DNA of 64,000 nucleotides. Source: Methylophilaceae bacterium. Its GTDB lineage: Bacteria > Pseudomonadota > Gammaproteobacteria > Burkholderiales > Methylophilaceae. A program made the translations under genes and the position numbers. The DNA is taken from positions 76,942 through 140,941 of the forward strand of contig JAOKBJ010000002.1 in NCBI GenBank assembly GCA_028244835.1, read 5' to 3'. The notes under the pieces are model-generated. The model was given only the letters and a program-made list of their open reading frames with translations. It made no database searches and was not told the DNA's origin. Positions 50,513 to 52,283 of the stretch are shown piece after piece (position 1 is the first letter of the stretch; each line of letters begins with the position of its first letter).

Positions 50513-51082
50513 ATGAAAAATATTCTTAAAATAATAATCTTAAACTTATTCTTCCTGATAAGCTTGAGCTCATTTGCTAAGGACTCTAATACGTTTACTA
50601 TTGAAACAAATCGAGGCAATATAACAATCGAAGTATACCCGGAAAAAGCTCCAGAGACTGTTAGAAATTTTAAGAAATATATAGCAAAAGAATTCTATAA
50701 TGGTTTAATTTTTCATAGGGTAATCAAAAATTTTATGATACAAGGTGGTGGGTTTGATAAAAGTATGATGCAAAAGCCCACAGATGATCCAATTATTAAT
50801 GAATCTAATAATAAGCTTAAAAATAAACCTTACACATTAGCAATGGCAAGAACCAATGATCCCAATTCTGCTACTTCACAATTTTTTATAAACTTAATAG
50901 ATAATGACTTCCTAAATTATTCTGGTAAAAGTTCTAGCAAAATAGGTTATTGTGTTTTTGGAGCTGTAATTGAAGGAAAAGAAATTGTAGATAAAATTGG
51001 TTCTTATAGCACGCATACAAAAAACGGGTTAAGCGACGTACCCATTAAGACTGTCGTTATTAAATCAATCAAGCAAAGGTAA
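50513..51082 (+). CDS. ppiA: Periplasmic peptidyl-prolyl cis-trans isomerase A (cyclophilin)
   Basis: The 189-residue protein has a signal peptide ending SSFAKD and a cyclophilin domain with [33 protein letters not shown] and YCVFGAVIEG. The catalytic Arg (HRV) and the PDSATSQFF-type binding loop are present. It speeds proline isomerisation in the periplasm. It is a tandem paralogue of the cytosolic ppiB that follows after 6 bases. Confidence 0.94.
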   Translation: MKNILKIIILNLFFLISLSSFAKDSNTFTIETNRGNITIEVYPEKAPETVRNFKKYIAKEFYNGLIFHRVIKNFMIQGGGFDKSMMQKPTDDPIINESNNKLKNKPYTLAMARTNDPNSATSQFFINLIDNDFLNYSGKSSSKIGYCVFGAVIEGKEIVDKIGSYSTHTKNGLSDVPIKTVVIKSIKQR

Positions 51083-51088
51083 GTATAA

Positions 51089-51571
51089 ATGAAAATTAAA
51101 ACAAATCTTGGTAGTTTCTCATTAGAACTTGATGAAGAAAAAGCACCGGTATCTTCAAATAACTTTAAGGATTATGTTGAAAAAGGCTTCTTTAATAAGA
51201 CAATTTTCCATCGGGTAATAGATGGATTTATGATTCAAGGTGGTGGATTTGAATTGGATATGACTCAGAAAGATACCCTTCCTCCCATTAAGAATGAAGC
51301 AAATAATGGGTTAAAAAATGAGAAATACACTGTTGCAATGGCGAGAACAAGTGACCCTGATTCTGCAACTTCTCAATTCTTTATTAATACATCTGACAAT
51401 AGTTTTCTTGATTATCCAGGGCAAGATGGAGCTGGTTACTGCGTTTTTGGTAAAGTTACTGAGGGTTTTGATGTTATCGATAAAATTAATTCTGTCAAAA
51501 CAGGATCTAAAAATGGGCACCAGGATGTTCCTGTTGAGGAAGTAATTATTGAGGAAGTAACAACTGATTAA
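51089..51571 (+). CDS. ppiB: Cytosolic peptidyl-prolyl cis-trans isomerase B (cyclophilin)
   Basis: The 160-residue cyclophilin lacks a signal peptide. It has [57 protein letters not shown] and [10 protein letters not shown]. It differs from ppiA mainly by the missing signal and shorter C-terminus. Its stop TAA overlaps the ATT at which lpxH may start, and its last codons contain the GAGGAAG that probably serves as the lpxH ribosome site. Confidence 0.96.
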
Positions 51572-52283
51572 GGTTGATACAAGTGCATTATTTGTTTCTG
51601 ATACTCACTTAAGTGAAGATTCGCCAGAAGTAATTAATCAATTTAATAATTTTATTGAAAATCATGCAAGTCAACATGACTTTCTATTTATACTAGGTGA
51701 CCTTTTTGAGTATTGGATTGGTGATGATGCCAATCAATTTGATTCAGTAGTTGCATCACTTCAAAAATTAAAATCTAATGTTTATTTTATTCCGGGTAAT
51801 AGAGATTTTTTAATTGGCCCTACGTTCTTAAATAAAACTAATATTATTATTCTTGAGGATCCAACATTAATTCAGCTGGGGAATCAACAAGCTGTTATTC
51901 TTCATGGTGATACTTTATGTATCGATGATAAAGAATATCAAGAATTTAGAAGAATGGTTAGATCTGATAATTGGAAAAAAGAATTTTTAAATCAAGAAGT
52001 TTATAAAAGGTTAGAAATTTGTAAAGATTTAAGAATGAAAAGTTCTGAGGCACAAAAAAATAAAGATACTTCCTTAATGGACGTAAACGAAAGCGAAGTA
52101 AAAAAATTATTCAAAGATTTAGACTTTCCCCCAATAATGATTCATGGACATACACACCGACCAAAAATGCATAAATATTTATTAGATAACAATATCTGTA
52201 ATCGATGGGTCCTAAATGACTGGTATGACTCTGGGAGCTATTTAGTTTGGAAAGACGATAAACTTTATTCTAAAACACTGTAA
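51567..52283 (+). CDS. lpxH: UDP-2,3-diacylglucosamine diphosphatase, non-canonical start
   Basis: LpxH hydrolyses UDP-diacylglucosamine to lipid X in lipid A synthesis, at the inner membrane. The 238-residue frame has all metal motifs: [34 protein letters not shown] and HGHTHRP. It is open from a TAA at 51558 but has no ATG, GTG or TTG before the Met at 51954, which would remove the first half of the active site. I therefore place the start at ATT 51567, overlapping the ppiB stop, or CTG 51564; GAGGAAG at 51551-51557 is well spaced for either. Length then equals E. coli LpxH. Confidence 0.9.

Follow-up and report, generated by a model that had tools for sequence, protein, structure and literature searches.

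A conserved CTG as the probable start codon of lpxH in a clade of the Methylophilaceae

The lipid A gene lpxH very likely starts at a CTG codon (nt 51564–51566, forward strand) in the genome examined here, a reading that is well supported by comparison with related genomes. Expression of LpxH may also be limited and sensitive to IF3, a proposal that the evidence favours by a small degree. The window (the whole stretch of 64,000 nucleotides that was analysed) comes from a draft genome of 1,077,554 bases in 15 contigs, estimated to be 81% complete, and belongs to a group of small marine bacteria, a methylotroph clade within the Methylophilaceae that we take to be 'OM43'.

The proposed coding sequence (nt 51564–52283, forward strand) runs from the CTG to the stop codon and specifies 239 amino acids, as judged by its reading frame and by family and structure matches. 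By homology, the product is LpxH (UDP-2,3-diacylglucosamine diphosphatase). It scored 220.7 bits against TIGR01854 (curated cut-off 190.35) and 265.3 bits against NF003743 (curated cut-off 134), both sufficient for membership of LpxH, and it carries all of the metallophosphoesterase motifs (DxH, GD, GNRD, HGD and GHTHR). Matches to solved LpxH chains extend from residue 7–8 onward. The frame is closed upstream by an in-frame TAA (nt 51558–51560, forward strand), with a single CAA between it and the CTG, and from this stop it reads TAA CAA CTG ATT AAG GTT GAT ACA AGT GCA TTA TTT GTT TCT GAT ACT CAC. No in-frame ATG, GTG or TTG occurs between the TAA and an ATG at nt 51954–51956 (forward strand), which is unusable as the lpxH start because it lies past the DxH, GD, GNRD and HGD motifs. 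The first-pass annotation of the window had described a frame without canonical start codons until 51954, past GNRDF and HGDTL, and its coordinates were all confirmed, as were those of the Shine-Dalgarno sequence GAGGAAG (nt 51551–51557, forward strand) and of the ATTAA (nt 51567–51571) in which the next lpxH codon, ATT (nt 51567–51569, forward strand), overlaps the stop codon of the preceding gene. It had named the CTG at 51564 and the ATT at 51567 as candidate starts, and the comparison of junctions upheld both as the codons to be considered; the ATT is read here as codon 2 of lpxH.

The gene adjoining lpxH upstream specifies a PpiB-like peptidyl-prolyl isomerase (nt 51089–51571, forward strand), with matches to the PpiA/PpiB models that fall below the curated cut-offs. 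Its 3' end contains the lpxH Shine-Dalgarno sequence and overlaps the lpxH start, and its stop codon (TAA, nt 51569–51571, forward strand) begins five bases after the first base of the CTG, a position compatible with translational coupling to lpxH. Directly before ppiB lies a second cyclophilin gene (nt 50513–51082), the product of which has a signal-peptide-like N-terminus, and two peptidyl-prolyl isomerase genes are found in tandem ahead of lpxH in the window.

The lack of a canonical start is a property of most of the clade. At 14 of the 18 clade loci, including that of the window, the stretch from the upstream in-frame stop to the first metal motif contains no canonical codon; whether the lack is conserved in related genomes had been raised by the first-pass annotation, and 13 of the 17 other loci share it. 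The remaining four (L002, L004, L012 and L013) have one in-frame TTG, five codons before the CTG, which coincides with the Shine-Dalgarno sequence because it is part of TTGAGG. In a draft genome such as this one, a canonical start might have been lost to an error of sequencing or assembly, but the same lack in independent genomes of the clade, including HTCC2181 (AAUX01000001.1) and the single-contig genome G019, refutes that explanation, and we give it practically no credence. A conserved start further downstream was also rejected. Counted from the beginning of the SDxH motif, the first canonical codon downstream is 19 to 119 residues away in the 18 loci, at varied positions and always past DxH; in L004 and others it precedes GNRD and HGD. 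Gene finders limited to ATG, GTG and TTG would be expected to cut LpxH past its first metal motif. More widely, a canonical codon lies within 25 codons before the motif in 78 of the best 80 lpxH loci listed from a public genome collection, and the two without one among the matches listed are both from the OM43 genus.

A gene without an ordinary start might also be a gene in decay, the lipid A step being carried out by another enzyme. The lpxH frame is intact, however, and the metal-ligand residues of the LpxH motifs are invariant in the 18-row alignment of the clade, that is, over 18 species. The gene is the single lpxH match in its own genome and its family scores are above the cut-offs, and decay is accordingly a very improbable explanation.

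The CTG itself is invariant at all 18 clade loci, none of its three bases having changed on the tree. On the same tree, the eight bases before it show 4–7 changes each and the bases after it 0 to 10; those without change are the central T in codons 2 and 4, a pattern that hydrophobic residues would be expected to produce. The body of lpxH has 220 ungapped codons, of which only two, one for Trp and one for Phe, are invariant at the DNA level in the 18 loci; all five invariant Leu columns vary in codon, and third positions changed 4.5 times on average. In the two surveyed genomes, CTG accounts for 7.3% and 4.5% of the Leu codons. The same non-canonical codon is kept beyond coding constraint in this clade, while it is found at none of the five loci of a sister subclade (group B, below). 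The GAGG of the Shine-Dalgarno sequence is likewise kept in 18/18 loci, although GAG is used for Glu less often than GAA (37% and 32% in two genomes), and it stands at a usable distance from the CTG, nine bases upstream in nine loci and ten bases in the other nine.

Coding by ppiB does not explain the invariance of the CTG, because the ppiB frame across it differs, being one frame in nine loci and another in nine. Relative to the CTG, the ppiB stop codon is a TGA at +1 in eight loci, a TAA at +4 in one, a TAA at +5 in eight and a TAA at +11 in one. The overlap of the two genes reads CTGA in the eight TGA loci, which corresponds to the widespread ATGA overlap. As the ppiB and lpxH frames overlap by a few bases, LpxH could in principle be made as a PpiB–LpxH fusion through frameshifting or stop codon read-through. 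The alternation of ppiB frames (nine loci versus nine) means that one frameshift rule cannot serve all of them, and folding of the junction in 10 of the 18 clade loci (the plus-strand loci without L013) revealed no conserved RNA structure (-0.23 kcal/mol, no compensatory pair). The invariance of the CTG would, in addition, stay unexplained, and we therefore consider a fusion product highly unlikely.

The lpxH gene was found in 27 of the 31 genomes of the genus, a set that includes HTCC2181, LSUCC0401 and AH-273-G03; the four genomes in which it was not found are 50–84% complete. The 27 junctions sort into three groups. In group A (18 loci, the window included), the CTG is followed by ATT (13 loci), ATA (4) or TTA (1), and then by 9 or 10 codons to the S-D-x-H motif. 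Group B (L022, L023, L024, L026 and L031) has AAA or GAA at the position of the CTG (CTG in 0/5) and then, in 5/5 loci, an ATT at the position of the ATT of the window, overlapping the ppiB TAA. An AAGG is found at an aligned spacing of 5 from this ATT. There is also an in-frame ATG five codons before the ATT, with only a 3-base match at a spacing of 11, and in L023 this ATG is cut off from the gene by an in-frame TAA. The ATT is the likeliest lpxH start at L023 (genome G016), which would give the genus two different non-canonical starts of lpxH. From these junctions, the ATT is probably the start of lpxH throughout group B, with ATT apparently taking the place of CTG in this sister subclade. 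Group C (L019, L025, L027 and L029) has the CTG at the same place as group A in 4/4 loci, followed by AAT or AGT; an in-frame ATG is present four codons before it, and neither the ATG (3-base match) nor the CTG (2–3 bases) has a clear Shine-Dalgarno sequence. Since an uninterrupted upstream ATG is present in frame at 8 of the 9 loci that make up subclades B and C, the absence of a canonical start cannot be claimed for the genus as a whole. An in-frame ATG was also present at all four outgroup loci (L020, L021, L028 and L030). In a tree of LpxH, which was built without the N-termini and drew a long-branch warning from the tree program, group A forms one clade (support 100/99), as does group B (99/97), while group C is weak (64/44).

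Initiation at the ATT of the window (nt 51567–51569) had been stressed by the first-pass annotation on account of its overlap with the ppiB stop as ATTAA. In its favour, weak initiation from ATT and ATA is proven (for infC and pcnB elsewhere, and for infC with ATA in this genus), one or the other is present at this position in 17/18 clade loci, and every locus of subclade B carries an ATT at this codon position, with its AAGG closely upstream and, in L023, with the upstream ATG blocked. Within the window clade, however, the codon changed four times on the tree whereas the preceding CTG never did, and at L009 (from a genome 64% complete) it is TTA. The occurrence of ATT or ATA without ATC in 17 loci is about what ordinary Ile codon use would give (ATC 16–17%), the aligned spacing from GAGG is 12–13, and a start at the ATT would leave the invariance of the CTG unexplained. 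The emphasis on ATT would probably suit subclade B (ATT in 5/5) better than the clade of the window (CTG in 18/18, ATT variable), where we consider an ATT start distinctly unlikely.

The spacing of the CTG was compared with that of unambiguous ATG genes having at least four bases matched to AAGGAGGT, a reference comprising 192 of 484 genes in HTCC2181, 175 of 501 in G019 and 10 of 32 in the window. Spacings of 3–10 were found in 149/192 and 133/175 of the reference genes of HTCC2181 and G019, respectively. The spacing of 9–10, which is that of the CTG, occurred in 27/192 genes of HTCC2181, 18/175 of G019 and 2/10 of the window, and that of the ATT (12–13) in 11/192, 11/175 and 0/10. The lpxH Shine-Dalgarno sequence is a 4–5 base match, and its 9–10 spacing lies on the shoulder of the distribution. 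Since spacing favours CTG over ATT only mildly, the case for the CTG start rests on conservation. A search of HTCC2181 for an altered initiator tRNA or anti-Shine-Dalgarno sequence found neither. It has an ordinary Met tRNA with a CAT anticodon and a GGG/CCC stem, the stem marking it as the probable initiator, and an ordinary 16S end (CACCTCCTTT) with the anti-Shine-Dalgarno CCTCC. With both of these ordinary, a mismatch at the first position is expected when the CTG is read. The yield from CUG in E. coli is quoted as 0.86% of that from AUG, and CUG is said to account for 0.024% of bacterial initiation codons (PMC11497404).

We infer the following course of initiation at lpxH in the cell. The GAGG(A) Shine-Dalgarno sequence inside the end of ppiB would position the 30S subunit, and ribosomes finishing ppiB at nt 51571 would reinitiate at the overlapping CTG. 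This codon would be read by the ordinary initiator tRNA, the first-position mismatch making initiation inefficient and exposing it to discrimination by IF3. Inefficient initiation would keep LpxH low relative to PpiB, and LpxH synthesis would follow IF3 activity, as for infC; the dependence of lpxH on IF3 is extrapolated from the class of its start codon. IF3 has been described as repressing non-canonical starts in the case of sigR of Streptomyces, which has a GTC start (PMC5472188), and IF3 and non-canonical starts are discussed for infC, ccpN and cvfC1 in Staphylococcus aureus (PMC13009471). The conservation of a start as weak as CUG suggests that LpxH production is held low in the cell, and the idea of the first-pass annotation that expression might be limited 'on purpose' would fit the pattern. 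Depletion of LpxH in Acinetobacter is reported to result in growth defects via toxic intermediates (PMC12444477), so that a low level of LpxH must still not fall too far.

The CTG could also be the start of lpxH and be merely tolerated, without regulatory meaning. This explanation shares the CTG start, and its probability is not additional to that of the start. The genomes are small and have overlapping genes, and the sister subclades have other candidate starts, both of which would suit mere tolerance. On the other hand, ATG, GTG and TTG are each one base away from CTG and none of them is found at that codon in 18 loci. As third positions changed 4.5 times on average over the same loci, the CTG looks like the product of selection rather than drift, and we regard simple tolerance as unlikely. 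Much more tentatively, lpxH could be on IF3-discriminated starts across the genus (CUG in the clade of the window and AUU in the sister subclade), tying the UMP-removing step of lipid A synthesis to translation initiation. This would act as a throttle on outer-membrane growth in streamlined bacteria, within a small IF3 regulon that includes infC and perhaps genes for MerR-family, GreA/GreB-family and MEKHLA-domain proteins; we offer this extension as a conjecture, and a doubtful one.

Several known systems can be compared with lpxH. The remark in the first-pass annotation that ATT initiation is known in E. coli mainly for infC was correct as to infC, but pcnB is also known. The pcnB gene of E. 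coli reportedly has an AUU start that limits its translation, going by the title of a 2002 paper by Binns and Masters. It resembles lpxH in having a weak start, but this is AUU rather than CUG. In the genus studied here pcnB, taken as a further positive control, proved to have a canonical in-frame codon upstream in 20/20 anchored loci (25 were tried, five of which had no anchor). For infC, a gene in which a non-canonical start is expected, an ATA was found at the same place in 26/26 loci of the genus that were examined (L114–L139, the genome of the window being represented by L132); 28 loci had been found, and two were left out, one being broken by stops and the other partial. The infC start is ATT in E. 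coli and ATC in Streptomyces (PMC5472188), and AUA in S. aureus (PMC13009471). Both infC and lpxH show a conserved non-canonical start of an essential gene, but the infC codon is a third-base near-cognate and the gene is autoregulatory, whereas lpxH has the first-base near-cognate CUG and codes for a lipid A enzyme.

The GTC start of sigR is reported as conserved in 32 of 34 species, along with its Shine-Dalgarno sequence, low expression being needed (PMC5472188). It is similar to lpxH in this double conservation and differs in having been tested experimentally, in its strong Shine-Dalgarno sequence (AGGAGGTG), in specifying a sigma factor and in the codon, GTC. In S. aureus, ccpN (AUA) and cvfC1 (AUU) have conserved non-canonical starts with reporter yields of about 10%, rising for ccpN to as much as 30% in rich medium, and the word CUG is absent from the main text of that study (PMC13009471). 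The Shine-Dalgarno sequences of these two genes are extended, while lpxH has only GAGG(A). The lpxH gene of E. coli K-12 has a GTG start directly behind ppiB. The gene, the gene order and a start weaker than ATG are thus the same as in the window, but GTG is canonical, and two bases separate it from the ppiB stop, so that there is no overlap.

Conserved non-canonical starts are already known; a literature search, limited in depth and coverage, found no mention of lpxH initiating at CUG. The question of why weak starts are selected finds a clean natural example in a lipid A gene whose apparent start, CUG, has been kept in 18 species. If true, the lpxH start would be a control point of lipid A synthesis other than LpxC, which is presented as the best characterised regulatory node of the pathway in a 2025 review, the consulted portion of which mentions no translational control of LpxH (PMC12444477).

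The rarity of such genes was gauged from 958 ortholog pairs of HTCC2181 and G019. In five pairs, both genomes lacked a canonical start for over 20 residues beyond the aligned start: lpxH, infC, a MerR-family regulator, a stretch apparently antisense to a tRNA, and one resembling FolB, with an ATG where that family starts. As infC, a known case, was recovered, the survey is able to find true cases. The same survey applied to the window flagged 14 of the 80 ORFs with a match in G015, and those other than lpxH look like short overhangs or antisense ORFs. The MerR-family regulator (PF13411; G015:C3, frame A, minus strand, nt 223134–223554) and its G019 counterpart have CTG GAA at the same place, and in the two genomes the frame runs for 26 and 36 codons before a canonical one appears, making it a possible further CUG start. 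A GreA/GreB-family factor (PF03449; G015:C3, frame A, plus strand, nt 713888–714374) begins ATC or ATT AAA AAC/AAT TAT, with no canonical codon upstream in either genome, and possibly uses an ATC/ATT start. For a MEKHLA-domain protein (PF08670; G015:C3, frame A, minus strand, nt 419006–419447), the first canonical codon lies 20 and 28 residues past the aligned start in the two genomes.
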